In this document: piece by piece, positions 13,848 through 26,822 of the stretch | How the letters are laid out: every line of letters starts with the position of its first letter | Numbering within the stretch: position 1 is the stretch's first letter | NCBI RefSeq assembly: GCF_900102015.1 | Contig: NZ_FNAT01000002.1 | Coordinates: 558,001-622,000 of the forward strand | From: Limimaricola pyoseonensis | GTDB lineage: Bacteria > Pseudomonadota > Alphaproteobacteria > Rhodobacterales > Rhodobacteraceae | Reading direction: 5' to 3' | DNA length: 64,000 nt | Notes under the pieces: generated by a model | Databases searched by the model: none | What the model saw: only the letters and a program-made list of their open reading frames with translations | What the model was told of the DNA's origin: nothing | Translations under genes and position numbers: made by a program

Positions 13848-13937
13848 GGAGGAGTGGCAGAGCGGTCTAATGCAACGGTCTTGAAAACCGTCGTGCGTGG
13901 AAGCGTACCGTGGGTTCGAATCCCACCTCCTCCGCCA
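13848..13937 (+). tRNA. tRNA-Ser(TGA), integration target of the island
   Basis: A 90-base class II tRNA: acceptor GGAGGAG pairs with CTCCTCC, discriminator G, encoded CCA at 13935-13937. The anticodon arm ACGGT/ACCGT encloses TGA at 13882-13884, with a long variable arm. The last 14 bases plus one downstream base are repeated at 21125-21139, marking it as the attachment site. Confidence 0.97.
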
Positions 13938-13938: not shown

Positions 13939-13991
13939 GTTTCTTTAGAATGTTTAAGTATAACAGTGATTTAGGGGCGCGTGACGCTGGA

Positions 13992-14015
13992 CCGTCCCCC
14001 ATTTAAACCCCCATT
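13992..14015 (+). repeat. Left arm-type repeats of the island
   Basis: CCGTCCCCCAT at 13992-14002 is followed 12 bases later by a second CCCCCATT at 14008-14015. The 13-base string CGTCCCCCATTTA recurs at 21007-21019. Position just inside the core site suggests integrase or excisionase arm sites. Confidence 0.5.
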
Positions 14016-14192
14016 CATAATCCGCATTGAGGGCAGGGGGGATCATTCTCCAAATTGCGGATGCGGGTGTTTTCAGAATGCTGTCCGTCCCCAGCTCGGC
14101 AGCGATGAGACTTCGCGCACCCCCACCCCGTTTCCTGCCTAAGCTCGATGCACACGAAGGTGAGGCACGGGTCTTCGACTCCGCCGCCCTAC

Positions 14193-14468
14193 TTACTTTT
14201 CCGGGGGGGCAGGCTGCCGCTGTAAGAGATTACTTGTTATCAGAGGCCTGACACGTCTCGTCAGTTCGTTGATGTTGCGTTCAGCGTCAACCCATTCCCG
14301 TGCTCGCCTGTCATGCAGGTAGGACGGATGCCTCTCATCAGCGTAGCGCCCACCGCCTGCGCCACGAAACCGGCATACGCGTTATCCTCTGAGAGCTGAG
14401 CCTCTACACCTTGCACCCGTTCGCTTAGGCGTGGCGACGCATCTAGGGGCCGCTTGAGCCCCGCTCAT
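14193..14468 (-). pseudogene. Decayed copy A of the HGG-type small protein
   Basis: From ATG 14468 the frame aligns residue by residue with the intact copy at 15667-15942 (shared N-P-M-S, A-A-P-R-C and C-R-F positions). At codon 29 the tryptophan of the intact copy is TAA (14382-14384), and the histidine of the HG motif has become arginine. The frame then stays open to a TAA at 14193-14195 with a conserved RAREW block. No frameshift is seen, so the nonsense change is the inactivating event. Its upstream start context is also altered relative to copy C (ATA in place of ATG). Confidence 0.75.
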
Positions 14469-14478
14469 GGGGTTATCG

Positions 14479-14628
14479 TCATTCTTTGATATGATGCTGC
14501 CCACCATGGTGGATGTTACCCACGACCGCCTGTCTACCGCGTTTGACTGTGACGCGCGCTATTCAGACGGTTTATTGGCCTTAGCGCGGTGCTTCTTCAG
14601 CGCTTCCATCTACGTGAGGTTGCCCTGC
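14479..14628 (-). pseudogene. Decayed copy A of the GQAVVGN-family protein (C-terminal fragment)
   Basis: On the minus strand the sequence encodes MEALKKHRAKA, then after a frameshift VTVKRGRQAVVGNIHHGG, matching the C-terminus of the intact copies at 15932-16381 and 17199-17723. The CAG before MEA is TAG here. The N-terminal two thirds are missing, and the sequence joins directly onto an HTH gene remnant. It ends in TGA 10 bases before the copy A HGG start, so gene order matches the intact modules. Confidence 0.7.
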
Positions 14629-14631
14629 TGT

Positions 14632-14745
14632 TTGCCGAACGCGCGCTGGGCTGTGGTCTTGCCGATGCTCAGCGTTTCCGCCGTCTCGTTAAGGGAGAGG
14701 AACAGCGTGCCGTTTTGTTCGCGCCGTTGTGCTGACGTCTGCAAA
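14632..14745 (-). pseudogene. Decayed copy A of the winged-helix/HTH protein (internal fragment)
   Basis: The minus strand encodes LFLSLNETAETLSIGKTTAQ, which matches residues of the intact protein at 17754-18269 with few changes, including the recognition-helix region. A one-base insertion upstream breaks the frame, and the C-terminal part was lost in the deletion that fused it to the GQAVVGN-family fragment. Confidence 0.7.
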
Positions 14746-14940
14746 TCAAAGTGTTTCGGAGTGCGGGCAACTCACTCCTCCGTCCTGACCTTCGATCATC
14801 GTCGCAGGAGATGATTCATTTGAGCCTTATCCGTGGCTTGCTAGCGATGTGGCTCCCGCGGGGTCGTATTGGCGCTCAGGTGCCCCATCTGTGTAGTGGC
14901 CGAGGGGTATTCCCTCTCTGGCTTTATGGAGGGCCCAATA

Positions 14941-15120
14941 ATGGGTGCCGACACTTCTCAGCCAAACCGCAACCCCGCCAGTCGCAATCTCGCGAGGGAT
15001 GAAGACGACAAGAAGCGCGCCCAATACGCGCGAGACAAGGCAGCGACACTCGATCAGGAATCGGACCCGGCGCAGCCGCAACCCGGCGACAAGCCGCACC
15101 CCGATCCAATCAAGAGCTGA
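14941..15120 (+). CDS. Small charged protein on the island, unknown function
   Basis: A 59-residue plus-strand gene starting at ATG 14941 behind GGAGGG at 14928-14933 with a 7-base gap, the best ribosome site in this part of the island. The product is hydrophilic: a central charged helix (DEDDKKRAQYARDKAATLDQ) and a Pro/Asp-rich tail. No signal peptide or membrane segment. It lies between module copies A and B and points opposite to them. I do not recognise a family; it could be a small effector, an antitoxin-like protein or chance. Confidence 0.45.
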   Translation: MGADTSQPNRNPASRNLARDEDDKKRAQYARDKAATLDQESDPAQPQPGDKPHPDPIKS

Positions 15121-15666
15121 TACTGCGCCATCCAAGAGATTGAGCATGTCGCCGGACCATTTGTGGCGCATGAGGAGCTTGAGTGCCTGCTAGGTGGAAG
15201 CCATGGCCGAGCTTCATTTACGAGTGTTCTGCCCCCCGAACGGCCTCCGGGGGGCAGGGTAAGCCTTGGCTCGCCATGCTCTGCCCATATTTTCTCCGCC
15301 TCGACCACATGCAGATGCGCAGCCCGTCCGTCTCGTCGCTCTCCATGAAAAGCCGTCAACCCCCGATGGTGCCGAACACTCGCTAGGTGCACTTCGCATC
15401 GCTGTAGTTTTCGGCGGGCAAAGCGCTTGGTCTTGAGTGCGTCGGTTAAGGCTTGGATCCGTGCCATTCAGGAACAATCCTTCATAGCTTGGTCGAGTAA
15501 GGACCCATCCGCGCGCGCATGATAGTGGTTGCAAAACTGATGGCGCGCGAAGGCGGCAACCGGTTTGGTTTGCAGCCCGTTCATTCTCTACTTGCCGCCT
15601 TGAGGTCGGCCTGGGCGAGCCCGCTCCCGCTGCTTAGTCGCGACTGCGTTTCTGGTGGGCCGGGTG
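15121..15666. other. Gene-poor stretch between module copies A and B
   Basis: Several overlapping frames exist on the minus strand (the longest from 15467), but none has a ribosome site or recognisable composition, and the sequence is less GC-biased than true genes nearby. It probably holds eroded remains of another gene that I cannot identify. Confidence 0.4.
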
Positions 15667-15942
15667 TCATGAGCTGTGTTCGCCTGTCTGCCGGTACGGC
15701 CGGACCGCTCCTAGCAACCCGTTAATGTCGCGCCGGGTTCGAGCCCATTCCCGTGACCGCCTGCCATGCCGGTAGGAGGGGTGGGCGCTGCCTGCTGAGT
15801 GCCCCCCGCCCGCGCCATGGAAGCGGCACACGTTCCAGCCTTTGACAGCGGGGCCCTTGCATCTCACGCCCGTACGTTTGGACGTGGCGGTGCATCTGGG
15901 GGCTGCATGGGCCCTGCTCATGGGGTTGTCGTCACCTTTCAC
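15667..15942 (-). CDS. HGG-type cysteine/histidine small protein, copy B (intact)
   Basis: A 91-residue basic protein with the pattern C-x(9)-C-x(8)-C-x(3)-H (CTATSKRTGVRCKGPAVKGW, CRFHGAGGG), the compact zinc-ribbon-like motif often encoded beside phage packaging genes. The start is GTG 15942, with GGGGGAGG 7 bases upstream; it overlaps the end of the preceding gene by 11 bases. An ATG at 15921 is a weaker alternative. It is the only intact one of three copies on the island. Its role is unknown; DNA binding is plausible. Confidence 0.7.
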   Translation of the reverse strand: MKGDDNPMSRAHAAPRCTATSKRTGVRCKGPAVKGWNVCRFHGAGGGHSAGSAHPSYRHGRRSREWARTRRDINGLLGAVRPYRQTGEHSS

Positions 15943-16381
15943 CGTGATGCCTCCCCCCGTGCTGGACGTTGCCGACGACGGCCTGTCCGCCATTCTCGAC
16001 AGTAACGCGTTCGACCCGCACCGTCTGCTGTGCCTTAGCCCGGTGCTTCTTCAGCGCTTCCATCTGCGCGAGGTAGGTGCGGCTCAGGCGGATCATCGAT
16101 CGCTCGAAGCTCTCGCGCACGTGGTAGCAGCCGGTCGTATTCAACTCGCGCCGAGCCAGCTCTGTCATTGCGGCGTGCGTCACGGTCATCTGAATGACCA
16201 GCACGGCCTTGATGCCGTCGTGGAGTCCCTGCTCGGCCATCATAGCTGTTGCGAACTGGCAGCAATCCTCCTCTTGGCGCCTCCCGACCACCAATTCTTG
16301 CAACTGGCCCGGGCATGGTGTGGCGACCCCCGAGGCCAAGAGGGCAGTTTCCAGCTCGGAAGATGATCCGGCTATGTTCAT
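15932..16381 (-). CDS. GQAVVGN-family phage-associated protein, copy B
   Basis: A 149-residue protein from ATG 16381 (GGATGG 6 bases upstream). The frame is open to 16534, but the extra residues look non-coding. The C-terminal 85 residues share a predicted amphipathic helix (LSRTYLAQMEALKKHRAKAQ) and a beta-rich end (VTVENGGQAVVGNVQHGG) with the copy at 17199-17723. The N-terminus is unrelated to that of the paralogue and has two adjacent cysteines, suggesting recombination or decay there. Members of this family sit beside HGG proteins in alphaproteobacterial prophages; function is not established. Confidence 0.6.
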   Translation of the reverse strand: MNIAGSSSELETALLASGVATPCPGQLQELVVGRRQEEDCCQFATAMMAEQGLHDGIKAVLVIQMTVTHAAMTELARRELNTTGCYHVRESFERSMIRLSRTYLAQMEALKKHRAKAQQTVRVERVTVENGGQAVVGNVQHGGRHHGER

Positions 16382-16664
16382 GGTTTTCCATCCGTCATGT
16401 TCTTGGTGAAGGCAGTAGGGCGGGACCGGGGTGTTTGTAGGGTTAGCTCTGGCTCCAGCACGGGTCCCAGAGCCAAGGTCATCGACCTCGATTCGCTCAG
16501 ATTTTTGTTCGGCTGGCACTGCCTGTGCCGCCATTTTTATTATTCAAAGCCTTGAGCGTATTCATTGCCTTAAGGGTGGTTCGGGTGATTCGCGGAAAAT
16601 GTGTGCAGCGAATCACTATCTTTGTGCTGGGGAGGGGTAGAGGGTGGGGCCAGGAGGGCGAATC

Positions 16665-16826
16665 ATGGAAAATAAAACTCCAAAAAGGATAGATGACCCG
16701 TTTGACGAAATGGCCGATATGAATCGTGCACAGCGTGAGCGGGAGTACCTTGCTAGGCAAGAGCGGAGGTGCAAGCCCAATCGGGCTGCGCCGAAAACCT
16801 CCCGGGAGCTCCCTGAAAAGGGCTGA
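16665..16826 (+). CDS. Small charged protein on the island, unknown function
   Basis: A 53-residue plus-strand gene from ATG 16665 with GGAGGG 6 bases upstream. The product is very hydrophilic (acidic start DDPFDEMADM, basic middle NRAQREREYLARQERRCK). Like the gene at 14941 it lies between two module copies, points opposite to them and uses the same ribosome-site type. The two products share an N/K-R-A-Q-x-x-R helix, but the similarity is too short to prove kinship. A stem-loop follows at 16845. Confidence 0.45.
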   Translation: MENKTPKRIDDPFDEMADMNRAQREREYLARQERRCKPNRAAPKTSRELPEKG

Positions 16827-16844
16827 ATTCAATTTGTGGTTTGG

Positions 16845-16870
16845 ACATGCTGCCGGTTTTTTCAGCATGT
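16845..16870 (+). terminator. Stem-loop after the 53-residue gene
   Basis: ACATGCTG at 16845-16852 pairs with CAGCATGT at 16863-16870 around a loop that contains a run of six T (16857-16862). It begins 18 bases after the stop codon at 16826. The stem is short and the T-run is inside the loop, so termination is uncertain. Confidence 0.3.
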
Positions 16871-16918
16871 GGACCATGCATGTGGGAACGTGCCGTGCAT
16901 TGGCCTTTTAACTATTCT

Positions 16919-16949
16919 TCTGCCCTCTAAGAAAAACTTGGAGGGCAGA
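16919..16949 (-). terminator. Hairpin after the copy C module
   Basis: TCTGCCCTC at 16919-16927 pairs perfectly with GAGGGCAGA at 16941-16949; an inner AAG/CTT pair extends it. It lies 5 bases beyond the stop of the minus-strand remnant at 16955 and probably ends the island's main minus-strand transcript, though no long U-tract follows. Confidence 0.4.
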
Positions 16950-16954
16950 TCGGT

Positions 16955-17212
16955 TCAATATTGATCTGGAGGAATTTCTGGCGATGCCTTTCCGTTGCGG
17001 GCGGTTGGTATTACGAAATTCCATTGGTTCGAGGGTGAGCTTTTCGACGGACGGGGATTCGCGTCTTGTATCTTTGGCGCCTTGTGGCGCCCATGAGGTC
17101 GGAGAATATCGTTTTTCCCTTCTCGGACCTCACGCCTGCCTGCTTCTACGCAGCGAATGCATCTAGAGGCCGCGCGCGCCTTGCTTATAGGGTTGTCGTC
17201 ATTCTTCGACAT
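16955..17212 (-). pseudogene. Degenerate copy C of the HGG-type small protein
   Basis: The frame starts MSKNDDNPISKARAASRC, matching the start of the intact copy B over about 18 residues, then diverges. The second and third cysteines and the CRFHG block are gone, replaced by an unrelated tail. ATG 17212 overlaps the stop of the GQAVVGN gene just as in copy B. A new product of 85 residues could still be made, but as an HGG protein it is broken. Confidence 0.55.
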
Positions 17213-17723
17213 GAGGCCGCCCTCCGTGCTGGATATTGCCGACGACGGCCTGTCCGCCGTTCTCGACGGTGACGCGTTCGACCCGCACCGTCTGCTGCGC
17301 CTTTGCGCGGTGCTTTTTCAGTGCCTCTATCTGCGCGAGGTAGGTGCGGCTTAGCCGGGTCATCGAGCGCTCTAGGCTCTCGCGGACCTGATAGCCGCCG
17401 GTCGTATCCATCATGCGCCGCGCCATTTCGGCCATCGCCGTATGCGTCGCGGCCATCTGCACGACCAGCATGGCCTCGATGCCATCGCGGGGTTCGATTT
17501 CAACAGCCATGGCGGCGAGCAGGTCGCGGTAGTCCTCGCCGCTCCTGCCCAGCGCATTCATGGCGGTTCGCATGAGGCCGGATGCGGCCTCGCCTGTCTT
17601 GGTCCCGAACAGCTCGCGTAGCTGCTCGGGTCCGTCCGTCACGATGGAGACGACACCATTGGCGGAGGTGCGGAAGCGGGGGGCGGTTCGGGTGCTCCGT
17701 GGTGCCGTGGGTGGCTGCGTCAT
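17199..17723 (-). CDS. GQAVVGN-family phage-associated protein, copy C
   Basis: A 174-residue soluble protein. The N-terminal half has an Ala/Arg/Thr-rich lead, then helices around MRTAMNALGRSGEDYRDLLA and IEAMLVVQMAATHTAMAEMA. The C-terminal half carries LSRTYLAQIEALKKHRAKAQ and VTVENGGQAVVGNIQHGG. It appears complete, unlike copies A and B. Position between an HTH protein and an HGG protein suggests a role in a phage-like packaging or DNA-handling step, but this is inference from neighbourhood only. Confidence 0.65.
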   Translation of the reverse strand: MTQPPTAPRSTRTAPRFRTSANGVVSIVTDGPEQLRELFGTKTGEAASGLMRTAMNALGRSGEDYRDLLAAMAVEIEPRDGIEAMLVVQMAATHTAMAEMARRMMDTTGGYQVRESLERSMTRLSRTYLAQIEALKKHRAKAQQTVRVERVTVENGGQAVVGNIQHGGRPHVEE

Positions 17724-17753
17724 GGTCCGTTCCTTACAGGGGAGTGGTATGTA

Positions 17754-18269
17754 TTAGCGGCCCATCTCAGAACCCGGCGTGACCGGCGAAACCGGCCTGA
17801 CGGGTTTCCGAGCGGACCCATGGCGATTGAGGTGGTTTCGAGGCGGACCCATGGGGCAGGCCGACGGGTCCGTTACAGAACCGCGTTCTGTTTTCGGCCG
17901 CCACGATTGCCAATCGTTCGAGGCCGTGCTCTGCGGCCTGCCGTTTTCGGGCTTGGTGGTAATGCGCCATTCGTTCGCCTGACGCCCATACCAATTGCCC
18001 TGCTTGGTCAGGACCAAGAAGCCCTTGTCCTGCAACTCGTCGAACGCGCGCTGAGCGGTTGCCTTTCCTATGCCCAGCGTTTCCGCCGCTTCGTTCAGCG
18101 ACAGGAACAGCTTTCCGTTGTTCCCGCCGTTGTAGCGGGTGTGCAGTTCGAGCAGGACCTTGATGGCCGGACCTGACAGCGCGCGCCACGCACGCGATTT
18201 AAGTAGCGCGTAGGGGAGGGGGGCGTATTGCCCCTCCTCCGGTCGCTTGCCTTTGCGGCCTCTAGCCAT
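17754..18269 (-). CDS. Winged-helix/HTH DNA-binding protein (replication- or regulation-type)
   Basis: A 171-residue protein with an N-terminal winged helix: YALLKSRAWRALSGPAIKVLLELHTRYNG, then LSLNEAAETLGIGKATAQRAFDELQDKGFLVLTKQG with a clear helix-turn-helix, and a disordered basic tail. Such proteins occur on alphaproteobacterial satellites, where they may start replication or regulate transcription. ATG 18269 follows GGAGG at 8 bases; the frame is open to 18299 without a site. It overlaps the preceding 45-residue gene by 8 bases. A fragment of a second copy lies at 14632-14745. Confidence 0.75.
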   Translation of the reverse strand: MARGRKGKRPEEGQYAPLPYALLKSRAWRALSGPAIKVLLELHTRYNGGNNGKLFLSLNEAAETLGIGKATAQRAFDELQDKGFLVLTKQGNWYGRQANEWRITTKPENGRPQSTASNDWQSWRPKTERGSVTDPSACPMGPPRNHLNRHGSARKPVRPVSPVTPGSEMGR

Positions 18270-18399
18270 TGTTCGGGCCTCCATAGGCCAGGGCTGCAAT
18301 GAGCCGGGCCGTAGGCTCGGGCAGGCCGTGCTTGAGCATGACGCGCCGTGCGCTGGGCGGGACGATGCGGGGCGGAGTCTTCGGAAGCGGCAGGGTCAT
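18262..18399 (-). CDS. 45-residue protein nested between two DNA-binding genes
   Basis: The ATG at 18399 overlaps the TGA of the winged-helix gene (ATGA), and its TAG at 18262-18264 lies inside the next gene's start. The product has a Pro-rich lead (MTLPLPKTPPRIVPPSARR) and a short amphipathic helix (LPEPTARLIAALAYGG). The double overlap in an otherwise tight operon supports real translation despite its size. No function is known; I recall similar short proteins at this position in related islands, but no search was made. Confidence 0.6.
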   Translation of the reverse strand: MTLPLPKTPPRIVPPSARRVMLKHGLPEPTARLIAALAYGGPNNG

Positions 18400-18686
18400 C
18401 GCTGAGCCTCCCTGCTTACCGGCGTGACTTCGACCGCGCAGGCCAGCCGGTAACGCGCGTGGTGACCCCTGTAGGCTCCCTCGTGCGGCTCCATTTCGGT
18501 TTCGATGGAGACGCCCAGTTTGCGCAGGTCGTGGACGTAGCCTGACCAGCGAGGCGCGGGCCGCTCAAGGGGCGTGAGCCCGCGCGACCCGGCTTGTGCC
18601 AGCTGATGCATAGTCCAGCCGAGCCGGCCCTTGAGCGTAAGCGTGCGGGGGCGTTCGCCCTCCCGCAGAAGAACGTTCACTATCAT
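18396..18686 (-). CDS. Small winged-helix domain protein
   Basis: A 96-residue protein with the pattern LTLKGRLGWTMHQLAQAGSRGLTP, PAPRWSGYVHDLRKLGVSIETEMEPH and HARYRLA, which resembles a winged helix with a wing at the GAYRGHHARY turn. It is probably a DNA-binding regulator of the island. It is transcribed with the downstream HTH gene through overlapping starts and stops. Confidence 0.7.
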   Translation of the reverse strand: MIVNVLLREGERPRTLTLKGRLGWTMHQLAQAGSRGLTPLERPAPRWSGYVHDLRKLGVSIETEMEPHEGAYRGHHARYRLACAVEVTPVSREAQR

Positions 18687-18783
18687 CGCGATAGCCTCTT
18701 GTCGGTGAGAGGCGGGCTTTGGTATGGATAGTGTTGGACGGACTACCCAGCGCCCGCGCTCTCATTGAGACGCGGGTGTTGTC

Positions 18784-18978
18784 TTACCCGATGTCGGACT
18801 GGGCGGTGGGGCGACTGGCGAGCCAGTCCTGCACGGCACTTTCCGGCCAAGCGACTGCACGCTCGCCCAACCGGACGGGGCGGGGAAACTGCCCCTTCTG
18901 CATCATTGCATAGAGGCTCGACCGGCTAAGGCCGGTCAGGTGTTCAACGTCGTTGCGACGCAAATGACGGATAGACAT
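18784..18978 (-). CDS. AlpA-family regulator (excisionase-like)
   Basis: A 64-residue MerR/AlpA-type helix-turn-helix protein: LRRNDVEHLTGLSRSSLYAMMQKGQFPRPVRLGERAVAWPESAVQDWLASR is the full AlpA pattern. AlpA proteins activate or direct excision of P4-like elements at their integrase. The ATG at 18978 is preceded by GGAG 10 bases upstream. It lies between the DNA-binding genes and the integrase block. Confidence 0.85.
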   Translation of the reverse strand: MSIRHLRRNDVEHLTGLSRSSLYAMMQKGQFPRPVRLGERAVAWPESAVQDWLASRPTAQSDIG

Positions 18979-19079
18979 TTTGGAACTTCTCCGAACACGT
19001 TGGTATGCTCGGAAAATGGCGAGTAGGCTGAGGTTTGGGAACAGCAGAAGCTGCCCATAATTCGACTACCGTGCCCAAG

Positions 19080-19784
19080 TTATCTGTCGGGAATATGGGC
19101 GTCCATCTCGCGGAACGCGGGTGCCAGATATCGCTGCATGGTGGACCGCGATACGTCCTCCTCAAACACAATCTTTACCCACTCTATCGCCTCCATTGTC
19201 GTGGCGTCTCTTTGGTCTGAGGGTAATAGGCCTTTCCTCAAGCGCCTTAAGAACTCGTTCTTTACGACTTTTTCAACCCACCCGTCCCCATACTTGCGGG
19301 GGCCTCTCCGTTTGGAGACTTCACGAAGCTGGTGTTCACTAGCCCGCACGGATTGAGACGCGCTTTTGTGCTCGAATTCTGGATAGGACTTCGCCATATA
19401 CCCAATAAATTCTTTTTGCTTTAGGAGGATTGGGCAGCCAAGAAAGGGCCCATATCGCTTTATTAAGTCATCATTTGATCTGAAATGCTCTATTTCCTCA
19501 GCTGTAGTTGAGCCAACGGTCCCTATGAGTAGGTCGACATGTGCATTTGATCGTTCTCCAAAAAAGTCATCATCGACTAGGCGCTTAGAGGCAAAAACTA
19601 TTTCTCCATTTGAGAGGAGGACGCCAATTTGATCGACTTCGTTTAAGTGTGTCCAGAGGTGTTTGGATGTGGTTCTGACGGTCGAATCGATGTCAAAGCC
19701 ATTGGCCGTGCTGACCCATGTTTCTGCCGCGTGCAGCACCCTGAAAGAGTCAGATAGTGGCATCCAGTCATCTTTGTAGAACAT
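19080..19784 (-). CDS. Unknown island protein, translationally coupled to the integrase
   Basis: A 234-residue soluble protein whose ATG (19784-19782) shares one base with the integrase TGA, so translation is probably coupled. A frame back to 19835 overlaps integrase and is not favoured. The gene is clearly poorer in G+C than everything around it. The N-terminal 150 residues are not recognised. The C-terminal part has a basic linker (SKRRGPRKYGDG) and a helical region ending MEAIEWVKIVFEEDVSRSTMQRYLAP, which reads like a small helix-turn-helix found at the end of many alphaproteobacterial hypothetical proteins. It could be a regulator or a cargo (for example defence) gene; sequence alone does not decide. 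Confidence 0.6.
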   Translation of the reverse strand: MFYKDDWMPLSDSFRVLHAAETWVSTANGFDIDSTVRTTSKHLWTHLNEVDQIGVLLSNGEIVFASKRLVDDDFFGERSNAHVDLLIGTVGSTTAEEIEHFRSNDDLIKRYGPFLGCPILLKQKEFIGYMAKSYPEFEHKSASQSVRASEHQLREVSKRRGPRKYGDGWVEKVVKNEFLRRLRKGLLPSDQRDATTMEAIEWVKIVFEEDVSRSTMQRYLAPAFREMDAHIPDR

Positions 19785-21004
19785 CAGGGTGCTTTCGATT
19801 GTGTGGCCGGTACTGATAGCAGATATGCTGACCAATCTTCCATCAAGCGCCGCCTTTTTTCGAGCAAGTCCGACCGCGCGTAAGCAGCTTCAGCCTTGTC
19901 ACGTATAGTATGCGCTAGTGCTGCTTCGGACACTTCGCGTGGTATGCTAGTCTGTTCCTGCGCCCACGTCTTGAATGAGGTGCGAAAACCATGCACGTCG
20001 ACGTCAAAGCCGAGTTCCTTGACCAGCTTGGCGAGCGTCATGTCCGAGAGGGGTCGTCCCGCCTTCGCGCCGGGAAAAACGAGGCCGGACCCGGTGCCCA
20101 GCGCTTGCGCCTGACGTAGCGCCGCAATGGCATGGTCGCTGAGCGGCACGCGATGTTCGCGGCCCGCCTTCATGCGTTCGCCTGGTATCGTCCACTCGGC
20201 GCGATCCAGATCCATTTCGGACCAGACTGCCAGCCGCACCTCACCCGAGCGGCAGGCCGTCAGCACCAGCAGTTCGAACGCCAGCTTGGTGAACGGGTTA
20301 GCCTTGGAGGCGCGGACGGTCTTGAGGCAACCGGCGACCTCGCCATAGGGCATGGCCTTTCGGTGGCGCTGGGCGCGGCTCTGGCGGGGCAGGGCGCTGG
20401 AGATGGCTTCGGCGGGGTTGTCCTGCCGCCATCCTTGCGCAATGGCCCATTTCATCACGGTGCCGATGCGCTGCCGGACTCGGCGCGCCGTCTCGGGCTT
20501 CTCCAGCCAGATGGGTTGCAGCACTGCCAGAAGGTCGGCGGTGGTGATGTCGGACACGCGCTGCGCGCCGATGACGGGGAAGGCATAGGTTTCGAGCGTC
20601 GAGATGAATTGCGCAGCGTGCTTGGCGTTACGCCATGCCGGAGCGTGGATGGCGTGGACCTTGCGCGCCGCCTCCTCGAAACTGAGCGTGGCCTGTGCCT
20701 CGCGCTTGGCCCTGAGTGGGTCGCCCCCCTGCCGTGCCTGCCTGCGGCTCTCCTGCGCCGTCTCACGCGCCTGGGCGAGGCTGACCAGCGAAGCCGACCC
20801 AAGGCCGATTTCCGTCCGCTTGCCGCGAATGACAATGCGCTGCACCCAGCGTCGCGCGCCGTTTGCATCGACCTTGAGAAACAGGCCGTGCCCGTCGGTG
20901 TATTTGCCGGGCTTCTTCACGGTTCGCACGAATGCGGCGGAAAGCGCCTTCTCCGGGTGTCTGCCAGATTTCGTGCCACTCCGCCTGTTCTGACCGTCCG
21001 CCAT
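19784..21004 (-). CDS. Tyrosine-type site-specific integrase (P4 family, DUF4102 N-terminus)
   Basis: A 406-residue recombinase that joins the island to tRNA-Ser. The arm-binding DUF4102 domain (YTDGHGLFLKVDANGARRWVQR) spans about residues 25-100, a core-binding SAM-like domain about 105-205, and the catalytic domain after that with Arg252 (CRSGE), Lys279 (ERMKAG), His338-x-x-Arg341 (HGFR), His365 and the nucleophile Tyr375 (AEAAYARSD). All six positions are present, so it looks active. ATG 21004 is chosen for the GGGGGA site 4 bases upstream; ATG 21016 is possible. The leader holds the inverted arm repeats. Confidence 0.95.
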   Translation of the reverse strand: MADGQNRRSGTKSGRHPEKALSAAFVRTVKKPGKYTDGHGLFLKVDANGARRWVQRIVIRGKRTEIGLGSASLVSLAQARETAQESRRQARQGGDPLRAKREAQATLSFEEAARKVHAIHAPAWRNAKHAAQFISTLETYAFPVIGAQRVSDITTADLLAVLQPIWLEKPETARRVRQRIGTVMKWAIAQGWRQDNPAEAISSALPRQSRAQRHRKAMPYGEVAGCLKTVRASKANPFTKLAFELLVLTACRSGEVRLAVWSEMDLDRAEWTIPGERMKAGREHRVPLSDHAIAALRQAQALGTGSGLVFPGAKAGRPLSDMTLAKLVKELGFDVDVHGFRTSFKTWAQEQTSIPREVSEAALAHTIRDKAEAAYARSDLLEKRRRLMEDWSAYLLSVPATQSKAP

Positions 21005-21006
21005 CG

Positions 21007-21040
21007 CGTCCCCCATTTATAGCTGGAATATGGGGGACGG
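21007..21040. repeat. Right arm-type inverted repeats in the integrase leader
   Basis: GTCCCCCA at 21008-21015 and its inverse TGGGGGAC at 21031-21038 flank a 15-base AT-rich spacer directly upstream of the integrase. The inverse arm extended to 21030-21040 reads CCGTCCCCCAT on the minus strand, identical to the left-end copy. The pair may bind integrase during recombination and also repress its gene. Confidence 0.5.
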
Positions 21041-22485: not shown

Positions 22486-23367
22486 ATGACCGCCGCCCAG
22501 ATGTCCGAGGTCCAGACCATTCTCGCCGAAGAGTTCGAGGCGGTGCTCGAGGCCTGGTTCGCGACCCAGAAGCGCGAGGGCGTGCGCCGCCCCGACCTGT
22601 TCAGCGATGCCGAAAGCCGCCGCCAGCTGTCTGAGCTGCTGCGTGCCTTCGCCGCGGCGCTGCAGCAGGCCGATCTCTCGACCGCGGTCGACATAGAGGC
22701 CGAGGCCTGGTCCGACCTGCGGCTGGCGCTGTCGGAAGTGACGCTGGTGCGCACCGAGCGCGGCGTCGCGCCGTGGGAGATGACCGCCTTCGTGCTGGCG
22801 CTGAAGCAGCCGGTCGCCTCGCTGCTGCAGGAGCGGCTGTCGGACGACACCGGCCGGCTGCTGCAGGAGGTCTCCGATTTCGGCCGGGTGGTCGACGCCT
22901 TCGCGATGCACATCAACGAGCATTTCATCGCCGAGCGCGACGAGATCATCGACCGCCAGCGCGCCGAGATGATGGAGCTGTCGACCCCGGTGGTGCAGCT
23001 GTGGGAGCGGGTGCTGACCATCCCGCTGATCGGCACGCTCGACTCGATGCGCGCGCAGGAGGTGATGGAGAACCTGCTCAACGCCATCGTCGAGCACCAG
23101 GCCGAGGTGGTGATCGTCGACATCACCGGCGTGCGGGTGGTCGACACCCAGGTCGCGCAGCACCTGCTGCGCACCGCGGCCGCCGTGCGGCTGATGGGGG
23201 CCGAGGCGATCATCTCGGGCATCTCACCCAAGATCGCCCAGACCATGGTCGAGCTCGGCGTCGACGTCGGCGAGGTGACCACCCGGCCGACGATCCGCGC
23301 CGCGCTGGCCGAGGCGTTCCGCCGCGTCGGCTTCTCGATCGCCCGGATCGAGGACACCCGTGTCTGA
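22486..23367 (+). CDS. Stressosome scaffold protein, RsbR/RsbRD type
   Basis: A 293-residue protein with an N-terminal helical RsbRD_N-like domain (about residues 10-165) and a C-terminal STAS domain (about 170-285: STPVVQLWERVLTIPLIGTLDS, VVIVDITGVRVVDTQVAQHLL). With RsbS it should form the cytosolic stressosome. Thr221 (VVDT) matches Bacillus RsbRA Thr205, the phosphorylation site; the second site, Thr171, is Ser187 here. The N-terminal domain is the presumed sensor and has no haem-globin pattern. It overlaps rsbS by 8 bases. Confidence 0.9.
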   Translation: MTAAQMSEVQTILAEEFEAVLEAWFATQKREGVRRPDLFSDAESRRQLSELLRAFAAALQQADLSTAVDIEAEAWSDLRLALSEVTLVRTERGVAPWEMTAFVLALKQPVASLLQERLSDDTGRLLQEVSDFGRVVDAFAMHINEHFIAERDEIIDRQRAEMMELSTPVVQLWERVLTIPLIGTLDSMRAQEVMENLLNAIVEHQAEVVIVDITGVRVVDTQVAQHLLRTAAAVRLMGAEAIISGISPKIAQTMVELGVDVGEVTTRPTIRAALAEAFRRVGFSIARIEDTRV

Positions 23368-23722
23368 AGCGGCCTCGATCTACTCGGTCGACAAGGTGCT
23401 GCTGGTCGCGATCCGTGACAACATCACCGACACCGACATCATCAACCTGCAGGAAGAGCTGTCCGAGCGGATCGTGAGCCAGAAGGCCCGCGGCGTGGTG
23501 ATCGACATCGCCGCGCTGGAGATCGTCGACACCTTCGTCGGCCGGATCCTCGCCCAGCTCTCGGCGATTTCGCGCCTTCTGGCCGCCGAGACCTACATCG
23601 TCGGCATGCGCCCGGCGGTGGCGATGACCTTGGTGGAGCTCGACATGGATCTGGCCGGCAGTCGCACGGCATTGTCACTGAGCCACGCGCTCAGGGCGCT
23701 GAAGGCCAAGGGCCTGGCGTGA
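23360..23722 (+). CDS. rsbS: Stressosome scaffold STAS protein RsbS
   Basis: A 120-residue single STAS-domain protein that, in Bacillus, holds RsbT until phosphorylated. The core VVIDIAALEIVDTFVGRIL and GMRPAVAMTLVEL match RsbS closely. The phosphorylatable residue, Ser59 in Bacillus, is Thr58 here (IVDTF), a conservative change that keeps a hydroxyl. ATG 23360 lies within the end of rsbR and the stop overlaps rsbT by 4 bases, so all three are co-translated in stoichiometric order. Confidence 0.92.
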   Translation: MSEAASIYSVDKVLLVAIRDNITDTDIINLQEELSERIVSQKARGVVIDIAALEIVDTFVGRILAQLSAISRLLAAETYIVGMRPAVAMTLVELDMDLAGSRTALSLSHALRALKAKGLA

Positions 23723-24126
23723 ACCGGCCGCCGGGCGAGCCGGCGGCGCGGGTGGAGCTGTGCCGCGAACGCGATCTCGCCGCGGCGCGGCTCGCGGTCT
23801 CGAAGCTGCTCGACGCGATGGGCGCGCGGGCGCTGCGCAAGACCCGCTTCGTCACGGCGGTGAGCGAGATCGCCCGCAACGCGCTCGATCATGGTGGCGG
23901 CGGCACGCTCGAGGTCTGGCAGCTGGCGCGGCCGGCGCGGATCCGGGTGCTGTGCCGCGACGCCGGGCCGGGCATCGCCGATCTCGAGCTGGCCCTGACC
24001 GACGGCTTCTCGACCGCGCGCAGCATGGGCAAGGGGCTGGGCGGCGCGCGCCGGCTGGTCGACGAGTTCCGGATCGAAAGCCGCCCCGGCGGCGGCACGA
24101 CAGTGGAGATGGTCTCGAAGCTATGA
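23719..24126 (+). CDS. rsbT: Stressosome switch kinase RsbT
   Basis: A 135-residue serine/threonine kinase of the GHKL fold. The N-box is SEIARNALDHGGGG (Asn54), the G1 box DAGPGIAD (from Asp81) and the G2 box STARSMGKGLGGARRL. It should phosphorylate the STAS domains of RsbR and RsbS, leave the complex and act on a downstream partner. The GTG at 23719 overlaps the rsbS stop (GTGA). No RsbU homologue with an RsbT-binding coiled coil is seen nearby; candidate partners are the two fusion proteins downstream. Confidence 0.92.
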   Translation: MNRPPGEPAARVELCRERDLAAARLAVSKLLDAMGARALRKTRFVTAVSEIARNALDHGGGGTLEVWQLARPARIRVLCRDAGPGIADLELALTDGFSTARSMGKGLGGARRLVDEFRIESRPGGGTTVEMVSKL

Positions 24127-25124
24127 GGCATGTGGTCGATATCGCGGAGCCGAGCGCCGTGGCCGAGGCGCGCCGCATGGCGCGGCAGCTGACGGAAGGC
24201 GCCGGGCTCTCCGAGGAACGCGGCGAGGCCGCGGCGATCGTGGCGACGGAGATGGCCACCAACCTGCTGCGCCACGCGGGAGGCGGCCAGATCCTGCTGC
24301 AGGTCCAGCCGGGCCGCCCGGCGACGCTGGCGCTGGCCGCGATCGACCGCGGCCCGGGCATCGCCGATCCGGACGCGGCGCTGGCCGACGGCTATTCGAC
24401 CGCAGGCTCCGCCGGTGGCGGCCTGGGCGCGATGCGGCGGCTGGCCGACGGCTTCGAGATGCGCTCGACCCCCGGGGCGGGCACGGTGGTGCTGTGCCGC
24501 TTCGGCCGCGCCCGGCCGGTGCTGGGCGGGGTCGAGGCCGGGGCCTTCCTGATGAACTACCCCGGCGACCGCGCCTGCGGCGACGCCTTCGCCGCGCGCG
24601 ATGTCGGCGGCCGGGTCGATCTTGCGGTGATCGACGGCCTGGGCCACGGGCCGCGCGCGCAGGACGCGGCCGAGGAGGCGGTGGCGGGGCTCGGGGCGCA
24701 GCGCGGCGACGATCCGGCGCAGAGCCTGACGGCGCTGTCCAAGGGCCTCGCCGGCAGCCGCGGCTCGGTGATCGGGCTGGCGCAGATCGAGGCGGCGGAG
24801 CGGCGGCTGCGCTTCGCCGGGATCGGCAACATCTCGGCGATGGTGTTCGGCGGCGACGGCCGGCTGCGGCGGCTGATCTGCCGCGAGGGCCGGATCGGCG
24901 GCCAGACCCGCACGCCGCCGGTCGAGCAGGTGGACTTCACCCCCGGCGACACGTTGATATTGCATAGCGACGGGCTGGCCTCGATCCGCAGCATCGGCGA
25001 GCTGCCGCAGATGGCCGGGGCGAGCTGCGCCATGATCGCCGCGCAGCTGATGCAGGGGCGCAACCGCGGCCGCGACGATGCCTGCGCCCTGGTGGCGCGG
25101 CTGGCGATGACGGAAGGGGCGTGA
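24123..25124 (+). CDS. RsbT-like ATPase fused to a PP2C (SpoIIE/RsbX-type) phosphatase
   Basis: A 333-residue protein. Residues 1-125 form an RsbT-like GHKL domain with N-box TEMATNLLRHAGGG, G1 DRGPGIAD and G2 AGGGLGAMRRL. Residues about 135-333 form a PP2C-type phosphatase with metal aspartates in CGDAFA, VIDGLGHG (Asp171), HSDGL and GRDDAC. In Gram-positive stressosomes RsbX is the stand-alone phosphatase that resets RsbR/RsbS; here it is joined to a kinase-like domain. Its start overlaps the rsbT stop as ATGA (24123). Kinase activity of the front domain is not proven. Confidence 0.88.
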   Translation: MRHVVDIAEPSAVAEARRMARQLTEGAGLSEERGEAAAIVATEMATNLLRHAGGGQILLQVQPGRPATLALAAIDRGPGIADPDAALADGYSTAGSAGGGLGAMRRLADGFEMRSTPGAGTVVLCRFGRARPVLGGVEAGAFLMNYPGDRACGDAFAARDVGGRVDLAVIDGLGHGPRAQDAAEEAVAGLGAQRGDDPAQSLTALSKGLAGSRGSVIGLAQIEAAERRLRFAGIGNISAMVFGGDGRLRRLICREGRIGGQTRTPPVEQVDFTPGDTLILHSDGLASIRSIGELPQMAGASCAMIAAQLMQGRNRGRDDACALVARLAMTEGA

Positions 25125-26284
25125 TGCGGCTCACGACGCTGAAGATCGAGGGCGACGACGACATCGTCCGGCTGCGGATGACCGGGCAGGAGACGGCGCG
25201 GATCTGCGGCTTTGCCAAGTTCGCAGAGACGCGGATCGTGACGGCGCTGCTCGAGTTGGGGCGCAACCTCGTCCAGCATGGCGGCGGCGGCCGGCTGACC
25301 CTGTCGCTCGACGCCGACGGGCCGCGGGTGCTGCTGTCGGCCGAGGCGGCGGACCAGGGCCCGGGCATCCCCGATGTCGAGGCCTGGCTGAACGGCAGCG
25401 CGCCGGTCGCGGGCGACCGGCCCGGCCTCGGGCTGGGCCTGCGCGGCGTGCACCGCATGGCCGACCGCTTCGACATCGAGACCGGGCCCGAGGGCACGCG
25501 CGTCGCGGTCGGCTTCTGCACACCGCTCACCCCCGGCGCGCTGGCCGAGACGGCGCGGGCGGTGGGCGAGGCGCTGGCCGGGATGCGCCGCGCCGATCCG
25601 GCCGCGATGCTGGCCCAGCAGAACCGCGAGCTGCTCGATGCGCTCGAGGAGCGCGACCTGCTGATGGCCGAGGTGCATCACCGCACCAAGAACAACCTGG
25701 CGCTGGTCAGCGGGCTGATGCGGCTGTCGCGCAGCGGCGCCCGGTCGGAGGAGACGCGCGACGTGCTGCGCGATCTCGAGCTGCGGGTGAAGGCGATCAC
25801 CGCGCTGCACGACCGGCTGCAGCGCGCCTCGACCGCCGATCGCACGCCGCTGGTGCCGCTCTTGCGCGACGTGGCCGAACAGGCGCGCGCCGCCTTCTCG
25901 ACCGCGGATCTTGAGGTGAGCGTGGTGGTCACGGGCGAGGCGCCGCCGATCAAGGGCAACGCCGCCACCGACATCGCGCTGGCGGCGGGCGAGCTTCTGA
26001 CCAATGCCTGCAAGCACGCCTTCGAGGGCCGCTCGCAGGGCCGCATCCACCTTTCGGTGCGCCGCGAGGACGGCATGCTGAAGCTGGTCGTGTCGGATGA
26101 CGGCCGCGGCCTGACCGAGGGGATGGAGCGGCCCGAGCGCTCGGATTCGCTGGGTTGGCGGATGATCCGGACCATGGTGCAGAAGCATGGCGGCTTCGTG
26201 CGGACCTCGAGCACGGAGGGCCTGACGGTCGAGCTGGGCTTCGGCGAGGCGCATCTCGGCCTCGAGACAGAGCTCAAGGCATGA
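25124..26284 (+). CDS. RsbT-like ATPase fused to a HisKA_2 (HWE-related) histidine kinase
   Basis: A 386-residue cytosolic protein with no membrane segment. Residues 1-132 are an RsbT-like GHKL domain (N-box LELGRNLVQHGGGG, G1 DQGPGIPD, G2 GLGLGLRGVHRM). A coiled-coil linker leads to a HisKA_2 phosphoacceptor (EVHHRTKNNLALV, His186) and a second ATPase domain with N294 (LLTNACKHAF), DDGRGL and a family-2 GWRMIRTM box. Such kinases feed the alphaproteobacterial general stress response in many species. ATG 25124 shares one base with the preceding TGA; a GTG at 25121 is possible. No response regulator lies beside it. Confidence 0.88.
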   Translation: MRLTTLKIEGDDDIVRLRMTGQETARICGFAKFAETRIVTALLELGRNLVQHGGGGRLTLSLDADGPRVLLSAEAADQGPGIPDVEAWLNGSAPVAGDRPGLGLGLRGVHRMADRFDIETGPEGTRVAVGFCTPLTPGALAETARAVGEALAGMRRADPAAMLAQQNRELLDALEERDLLMAEVHHRTKNNLALVSGLMRLSRSGARSEETRDVLRDLELRVKAITALHDRLQRASTADRTPLVPLLRDVAEQARAAFSTADLEVSVVVTGEAPPIKGNAATDIALAAGELLTNACKHAFEGRSQGRIHLSVRREDGMLKLVVSDDGRGLTEGMERPERSDSLGWRMIRTMVQKHGGFVRTSSTEGLTVELGFGEAHLGLETELKA

Positions 26285-26429: not shown

Positions 26430-26642
26430 TCAGGCCTCGCGCGCGGCCCGCTCGGCGATGTCGCGAATCATCGCGCGGCTGATGCCGAGATCGGCGAGCT
26501 CGCGCTCGCTCAGGGACTGCAACTCGTCATAGGTGCGGGCATAGGCCTGCGCGCGGGCGCGGCGGCGGGCCATGCCGTCACGCAGGGCGGCCAGGCGGCC
26601 GAAGAAACCGGGGCGGGGGGTGATGTCGGTGGCGAAGGCCAT
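26430..26642 (-). CDS. DUF1127 small protein
   Basis: A 70-residue basic protein with the DUF1127 C-terminus (YDELQSLSERELADLGISRAMIRDIA). In Rhodobacter and agrobacteria, DUF1127 proteins are linked to stress adaptation and RNA turnover. ATG 26642 is the start that gives the usual length; a longer frame to 26765 is not supported. Its leader faces the 3' end of the LacI gene. Confidence 0.85.
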   Translation of the reverse strand: MAFATDITPRPGFFGRLAALRDGMARRRARAQAYARTYDELQSLSERELADLGISRAMIRDIAERAAREA

Positions 26643-26822
26643 TTGGCGATCCTCGATAGGCTGAATGTCGGGCCGGGCCGCGTGGCCCGTTGTGACGCCT
26701 ATCTGGTGGTCAAATCGCGCGCCGACCAGCGCCACCTCTTCAGCCCCGTCATGCGTCCGCGACATGGCTCGGGCCGCGGGTTCGGACGCGCGTTCGGGCC
26801 CGGCGTGGCACCGGCTTCCATG

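Follow-up and report, generated by a model that had tools for sequence, protein, structure and literature searches.

In Bacillus, the stressosome switch kinase RsbT is held by RsbS, phosphorylates RsbR on T171 and RsbS on S59 and is then released, and RsbX resets the complex; S59, T171 and T205 are the phosphosites given for B. subtilis (PMC7522486). Gram-negative rsbRSTX modules are described with HisKA/REC, cyclic di-GMP (c-di-GMP) or PP2C outputs, some of which contain RsbU_N, the examples including HisKA/REC modules in 'Dogia' and Ruegeria and a c-di-GMP module in Vibrio, so that a stressosome with a histidine-kinase output is already known (PMC9237108). In the same source RsbX is called a single-domain phosphatase, RsbR is globin-coupled, and an interaction of RsbT from Vibrio with the two-component protein of the neighbouring gene could not be demonstrated (PMC9237108). 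The general stress response of alphaproteobacteria is organized around PhyR, NepR and EcfG and receives input from several histidine kinases; once phosphorylated, PhyR binds NepR, and EcfG is set free (PMC4598750). PhyK and LovK exemplify the HWE/HisKA_2 kinases (PMC6530869). Here we analyze a stretch of 64,000 nucleotides (nt) from Limimaricola pyoseonensis (contig NZ_FNAT01000002.1, positions 558,001 to 622,000; hereafter the window), which contains a five-gene stressosome locus on the + strand (22486-26284) encoding RsbR, RsbS, RsbT, a PP2C phosphatase fusion and a HisKA_2 kinase fusion. Both the phosphatase and the kinase bear an RsbT-derived ATPase domain with intact ATP-binding residues, and from the sequence comparisons we read this domain as the coupling part of the output kinase. 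The genes, followed by the parts of the kinase, are:

22486..23367, + strand: rsbR, 293 amino acids (aa), with an RsbRD_N domain (PF14361, 61 bits, 22513-22830) and a STAS domain (PF01740, 56.1 bits, 22999-23301)
23360..23722, + strand: rsbS, 120 aa, GTG start, with a single STAS domain (Pfam, 36.5 bits)
23719..24126, + strand: rsbT, 135 aa, GTG start, a stand-alone HATPase switch kinase (HATPase_c, 45.6 bits)
24123..25124, + strand: RsbX-like phosphatase, 333 aa, with an N-terminal RsbT-type domain (about 24144-24494; HATPase_c_2, 49.3 bits) and a PP2C/SpoIIE domain (24606-25100; SpoIIE, 45.8 bits)
25124..26284, + strand: output kinase, 386 aa, with an RsbT-type domain, a helical linker, HisKA_2 and a catalytic ATPase domain
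25124..25522, + strand: N-terminal RsbT-type domain of the kinase (about residues 1-133)
25532..25738, + strand: linker helices 137-157 and 159-205 of the kinase (AlphaFold2 model), from the RsbT-type domain to the phosphoacceptor helix
25670..25885, + strand: HisKA_2 phosphoacceptor domain of the kinase (PF07568, 56.4 bits, cut-off 22.3), with the motif HHRTKNN
25949..26236, + strand: C-terminal catalytic ATPase domain of the kinase (PF13581, residues 276-370; PF02518, residues 283-371)

The original prediction, made from the sequence alone, described a complete stressosome locus with overlapping stops and starts throughout, and this description holds: the Pfam domains were all found, and the successive overlaps are 8, 4, 4 and 1 nt. 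A sensor-plus-STAS RsbR, a single-STAS RsbS and an RsbT ATPase are adjacent and in this order, and because the same five-gene order is present in 10/10 of the first relatives examined, the locus is not a chance arrangement. Shared with the B. subtilis sigma-B pathway are the RsbR/RsbS STAS core, the RsbT switch kinase, the PP2C reset phosphatase and the phosphosite columns, which hold Ser or Thr in 65/65 RsbR rows and 51/58 RsbS rows. In the window both sites are Thr, within the motif VDT of RsbR and in VDTF of RsbS, where the Thr aligns with the RsbS phosphoserine (the window residues were matched to B. subtilis S59, T171 and T205 by motif alignment). In contrast to the B. subtilis pathway, no RsbU, RsbV, RsbW or SigB is seen at the window locus, the phosphatase is an RsbT-type fusion encoded ahead of the output gene, and the output is a HisKA_2 kinase with an RsbT-type domain of its own. 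The longest open reading frame (ORF) of the phosphatase opens at 23760, within rsbT, and the relatives favour the start at 24123. The kinase has the composition of a HisKA_2 histidine kinase, a His-bearing phosphoacceptor domain followed by HATPase, with H185, H186 and R187 invariant; two HATPase stretches, one N-terminal and one C-terminal, are detected in it by Pfam.

That the PP2C and HisKA_2 proteins are fusions had been recognized in the original prediction; what it had missed is the RsbT-type nature of the domain fused to each of them, which provides the likeliest way in which the kinase is coupled. When RsbT was compared with its own genome (3.9 Mb, 20 contigs) at E 1e-3, there were three matches, all in this locus. 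RsbT is 42% identical to the phosphatase N terminus (E 2.9e-19) and 36% identical to the kinase N terminus (E 3.3e-12), and a profile built from the N-terminal domains of ten kinases agrees with that of RsbT at probability 100 (E 6e-41). In the PDB, an rsbT-led profile, with the window RsbT as its first row, matches SpoIIAB chains best. The AlphaFold2 model of the RsbT-type domain of the kinase (predicted local distance difference test, pLDDT, 89.8) likewise has SpoIIAB as its top six Foldseek entries, above histidine-kinase chains, and in four of these six SpoIIAB is bound to a STAS partner. One result counts against this assignment: the sequence profile of the kinase domain ranks a YycG kinase chain first in the PDB (E 4.3e-6) and SpoIIAB next (2.4e-5). 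A single-sequence PDB search with the domain gave zero matches. Although the sequence-profile ranking is less clear, the domain combines the SpoIIAB-like fold with the E and N of the N-box, DxGxG, GxG and the T that characterize the RsbT family. The equivalents of RsbT E50, N54, D81, G83, G85, G104, G106 and T127 are kept in 14/14 HisKA_2-type kinase domains and, because these eight ATP-site residues are retained, the domains should bind ATP. The R53 residue is kept in 58/65 stand-alone RsbT proteins and in 27/27 kinase domains with the core in view, and is replaced by T or S in 39/46 RsbT-type domains of phosphatases. The model of the whole kinase (pLDDT 79.1, predicted template modelling score, pTM, 0.49), whose best Foldseek match is the EL346 histidine kinase domain, shows the two linker helices leading into the phosphoacceptor helix; the linker blocks have pLDDT 56-92, with low confidence at about residues 161-190.

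The phosphatase encoded at 24123-25124 resembles M. tuberculosis Rv1364c (RsbU and RsbW domains, 3ke6) in that a HATPase switch and PP2C are joined in one protein; unlike the window locus, the listed entry 3ke6 has no histidine-kinase output domain. The Gram-negative rsbRSTX modules are similar in having a minimal RSTX set followed by signalling proteins and no SigB (PMC9237108), but an RsbT-type domain on RsbX or on the kinase is not mentioned in the output-module text of that source, the drawing in its Fig. 3 aside.

The survey of other genomes suggested in the original prediction bore out the arrangement more widely. Matches to the RsbT query were found in 16/385 genomes of the class at E 1e-16; with the RsbT profile at E 1e-20, they were found in 41/398 genomes of the phylum and 11/295 genomes of the family, eight of the latter with three matches, as in the window genome. 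Full-length relatives of the kinase are present in 5/149 family genomes, including that of the window. We read 80 loci with home-made profiles, and 34 of them encode an RsbT-domain kinase, in each case beside a fused phosphatase and a separate RsbT gene. The kinase core is HisKA_2 in 22 loci from 10 genera, among which the window genus is counted, and HisKA in 11 loci from 9 genera, with the remaining kinase (L067) cut at a contig end so that only its RsbT-type domain is visible; the kinase of L069 is likewise cut by a contig end. These counts include the kinases of L045, L134, L204 and L067, which ORF picking skipped and which were counted from the tree labels, and both L039 and L168, which are one record from one genus. 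Genera g255, g257 and g342 belong to the same phylum as the window but to a different class. The N-terminal HATPase was confirmed by Pfam in 17/17 of the RsbT-domain kinases scanned. Receiver domains are present in 9/9 HisKA-core RsbT-domain kinases scanned with Pfam (L070, L073, L135, L136, L140, L141, L144, L146 and L209), with L204 as a tenth; the HisKA_2-core kinases have no receiver domain and, except for PhyR, no adjoining receiver gene. In Phaeobacter the five-gene set resides on plasmids (58 of the 60 matching plasmid records are from this genus), including pPGA1_262 of the cultured marine strain Phaeobacter inhibens DSM 17395, which has the same five genes as PGA1_RS18475-18495.

Several loci depart from this organization. 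In L163, L164, L165, L166 and L173 an RsbT-type domain was found on the phosphatase and nowhere else, and no stand-alone RsbT gene was seen. A GGDEF-EAL protein comes after RsbT in L066, where it follows a fused phosphatase, and in L074, where no phosphatase is in view. In seven of the 80 loci altogether no phosphatase is visible, and two of these (L139 and L216), which are outside the 34, encode an RsbT-HisKA protein.

The comparison of phosphatases points to two styles of coupling. An unfused phosphatase (bare PP2C) is present in 17 loci, and in none of them does an RsbT-domain kinase adjoin it (0/17). Pfam-scanned outputs are available for 13 of these loci (all but L157, L158, L162 and L213); RsbU_N reaches the Pfam cut-off in four of the 13 (L072, L075, L152 and L151), remains below it in L170 (22.6 bits) and L078 (15.9 bits) and has no match in the other seven. 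At the same cut-off, RsbU_N is absent from all 17 RsbT-domain kinases scanned (of the 34) and from all 10 scanned outputs that stand beside a fused phosphatase without an RsbT domain; in the window kinase, RsbU_N (PF08673) has no match even at E 0.1. No locus read combines the RsbT-domain kinase with the RsbU_N style. Counted by genus, the distribution is 19/0 versus 0/4 (Fisher p 1.1e-4, uncorrected for phylogeny, the genera not being independent); genus g169, which is in this count, also holds L078 with its weak RsbU_N match. In a tree from which near-duplicate loci of the same genus were omitted (L034-L037, L149, L150, L168 and L205-L207), the RsbT-type domains of kinases form one group of 28 rows with a support of 86 (Shimodaira-Hasegawa-like approximate likelihood ratio test, SH-aLRT), apart from the phosphatase copies and near 40 stand-alone RsbT proteins (91). 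Within this group HisKA and HisKA_2 cores are interleaved, from which it follows that the kinase core was exchanged and the input domain retained. We infer that an RsbT-type domain would take the place of the RsbT-RsbU_N relay and dock the kinase on the RsbR/RsbS core.

A number of observations weigh against so general a role. Beside unfused phosphatases, the 991-aa kinase of L076 has a partial RsbT match of 32 bits and the GGDEF protein of L157 one of 20 bits, and the RsbT-HisKA proteins of L139 and L216 stand without a stressosome phosphatase. Tree support is moderate, as the alignment has 130 columns and a quick method was used. Furthermore, the 10 scanned outputs beside a fused phosphatase that lack RsbU_N, nine of them kinases, have no RsbT-type domain either, so this domain is not needed for every output. 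Loci L137, L143, L145, L147, L148, L149 and L071 combine a fused phosphatase with a HisKA output that has neither input domain, only a short N-terminal stretch.

We consider a four-protein stressosome (RsbR, RsbS, RsbT and the RsbX-like phosphatase) with a dedicated histidine-kinase output to be the overall explanation of the locus, with a probability of roughly 55%. In this proposal, the three RsbT-type modules would be rivals for the STAS surfaces of the RsbR/RsbS core or would occupy them jointly, and without stress the kinase would be held at the core through its own RsbT-type domain. Once RsbR senses stress, RsbT, perhaps along with the domain of the kinase itself, would phosphorylate RsbR and RsbS. 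The RsbT-type domain of the kinase would then let go or re-pair, and the change might travel through linker helices 137-205 into HisKA_2, which would autophosphorylate and in turn phosphorylate a response regulator whose gene lies elsewhere. Resetting of RsbR and RsbS would fall to the fused phosphatase, recruited to the core through an RsbT-type domain of its own. The likeliest regulator would be PhyR, in which case EcfG would be freed from NepR and the pathway would be an alphaproteobacterial counterpart of the Bacillus stressosome-sigma-B pathway.

Direct docking of the kinase on the RsbR/RsbS core, as predicted from the sequences, is the probable mode of coupling, and two other modes have to be weighed against it. 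In a classical relay, RsbT set free by stress would pair not with RsbU_N but with the RsbT-type domain of the kinase, one GHKL domain with another, and switch the kinase on, so that the kinase never touches the core. The separate RsbT gene that adjoins each of the 34 RsbT-domain kinases fits such a relay, as does the messenger role of released RsbT in Bacillus (PMC7522486); however, the solved relatives of the RsbT-type fold bind STAS partners or sigma factors, the RsbT-HisKA protein of L139 and L216 has no separate RsbT in view, and the phosphatase bears the same domain even though its expected substrates are STAS proteins, which favours docking on the core. We therefore regard the relay as unlikely. 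Still far less probable is a kinase that is uncoupled from the stressosome and whose RsbT-type domain is a remnant, degenerate or regulatory. The ATP-lid region (about residues 94-104) is indeed variable and poorly modelled, but the conservation of all eight ATP-site residues in the 14 HisKA_2-type copies speaks against degeneration, as does the maintenance of the fusion, the gene order and the tight spacing across 10 genera.

The original prediction also suggested that the kinase might feed PhyR, and here the evidence is divided. The window genome encodes PhyR, NepR and EcfG at one locus on contig 11, where a further HisKA_2 kinase gene is adjacent. The suggestion gained circumstantial support from other genomes, in particular from genus g581, where 5/5 genomes have the order phyR-R-S-T-X-kinase, with phyR 15-16 nt before rsbR. 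In one of these loci (L068, genome G851), the best of the three full-length PhyR-like matches of the genome sits just before rsbR, contains both PhyR Pfam domains and scores 309 bits with the NCBIfam PhyR model (cut-off 240), the kinase of the operon scoring 141 bits as a whole protein with the PhyK model; the other four g581 PhyR calls are based on a home-made profile (231-264 bits). RsbT profile matches at E 1e-20 are present in 14/82 genomes of the order of G851. In this taxonomic order, stressosome genes are also found among stand-alone receiver and HisKA genes (L210-L212, L215 and L217 of g398 and L214 of g742), which represents another style of output. Within the family, NepR is present in 8/8 carriers of the module versus 48/115 non-carriers of a 120-genome sample (p 0.0014). 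Outside it, the NepR matches of G720 and G851 are just above the cut-off, and G623, from an order that holds only two genomes, has no NepR match but does have a full-length PhyR. The system is similar to the PhyR-NepR-EcfG response in its HisKA_2 kinase and in the presence of phyR in the g581 operon, and differs from it in that the input in the window is a stressosome switch domain rather than a PAS, LOV or periplasmic sensor and in that the core is not PhyK-like.

The main alternative for the target is a different response regulator, served by the kinase in trans, with PhyR in g581 as a local recruitment. Several findings reduce the case for PhyR and lean this way: PhyR is in the operon in only 1/10 genera with the HisKA_2 core; the NepR difference has p 0.015 if only the five carriers inside the random family sample are used (5/5), and the correlation may follow phylogeny; and with the PhyK model the window kinase core scores 53 bits and those of four other family carriers 58-81, compared to 90-133 for NepR-adjacent HisKA_2 kinases (5/5) and 58-102 for 8/10 HisKA_2 kinases away from NepR (the other two gave no hit at E 1e-10). 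The window core is therefore less PhyK-like than eight of the 10 other HisKA_2 cores. Identification of the core as PhyK, which is its best NCBIfam match (75.7 bits), was rejected, as HisKA_2 kinases away from NepR score equally or higher. At least three HisKA_2-type kinases besides this one are encoded in the window genome. Judged by the EcfG consensus, the 250 nt preceding the window rsbR showed no EcfG-type promoter; a perfect GGAAC-N17-CGTT lies upstream of phyR in the window genome, and one-mismatch sites occur upstream of 3/16 rsbR-led operons (L065, L069 and L172) and of 5/5 phyR-led ones, with 0.08 expected by chance per 250 nt, the five phyR-led matches coming from one genus and not being independent. 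On the other side, a home-made receiver profile built from five sequences found no ORF above 25 bits in the window or in the loci retrieved for the remaining nine genera (in g508 the contig breaks off within the kinase), which leaves no hint of an alternative partner, and the presence of NepR in all eight family carriers also speaks against another regulator. No PhyR-, NepR- or EcfG-like ORF exceeded 20 bits with the home-made profiles in the other 75 loci. On balance, PhyR is a reasonable candidate for the partner of the kinase in the window organism, at odds not far short of even; the complete chain, in which an RsbT-domain kinase seated on the RsbR/RsbS core would phosphorylate PhyR and a Bacillus-type sensor complex would thereby control EcfG through a His-Asp relay and not a PP2C cascade, is put forward tentatively, and supply of another regulator in trans seems to us somewhat more doubtful.

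The original statement was that neither sigma-B nor RsbU is present in the window, and no RsbU/sigma-B set was found beside the locus. Among the window ORFs of at least 55 aa, none beyond the locus exceeded 20 bits with home-made profiles for RsbT, PP2C, two STAS types, RsbU_N, PhyR, NepR and EcfG, no sigma-B model having been run (the RsbU_N and PhyR profiles comprise two sequences each, those of NepR and EcfG one each). A Bacillus-type sigma-B operon (RsbU, RsbV, RsbW, SigB) is not found at the locus, where the five-gene run stops at the kinase and the neighbours are unrelated; the genome as a whole was not searched for one. Of seven neighbouring ORFs, six have Pfam matches (integrase, HTH_36, HTH_13, DUF1127, a LacI-type regulator and alpha-amylase) and one (19080-19835) has none. 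The DUF1127 gene (26430-26765, - strand; PF06568, 44.6 bits) and the kinase gene are convergent. Between tRNA-Ser (13848-13937) and the HTH_13 gene that lies upstream of rsbR there is an insert of about 7 kb (13940-21030), which encodes a tyrosine integrase (19784-21016). It contains diverged duplicated segments (15891-16190 and 17158-17457, 82% alike), and no direct repeats bounding its ends were recognized. In Limimaricola hongkongensis (L038), about 270 nt separate this tRNA-Ser from the HTH_13 gene. The possibility that the locus itself is a recent mobile island was rejected: in six loci from the genus Limimaricola, the downstream alpha-amylase gene is present in 6/6 and the upstream HTH_13 gene was seen in 5/6 (the upstream gene list of L042 is incomplete). 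Because these flanking genes are conserved, the site appears stable within Limimaricola despite the integrase-bearing insert just upstream. Limimaricola species and Brevirhabdus pacifica are the closest relatives that bear a name; Brevirhabdus shares no flanking genes with the Limimaricola locus at E 1e-30.

In the portion of the literature covered by our searches, outside which lies the 2005 review of RsbRST output modules (Pane-Farre), we met no stressosome tied to PhyR, no RsbT domain fused to a histidine kinase and no exclusion between such a domain and RsbU_N. For the signal output of stressosomes outside Bacillales, a kinase with its own RsbT domain offers a concrete and testable coupling, and the phyR-containing operon of one genus provides a named candidate target. 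If the proposed chain is true, two general stress responses that have been studied separately would share one kind of sensor hub.

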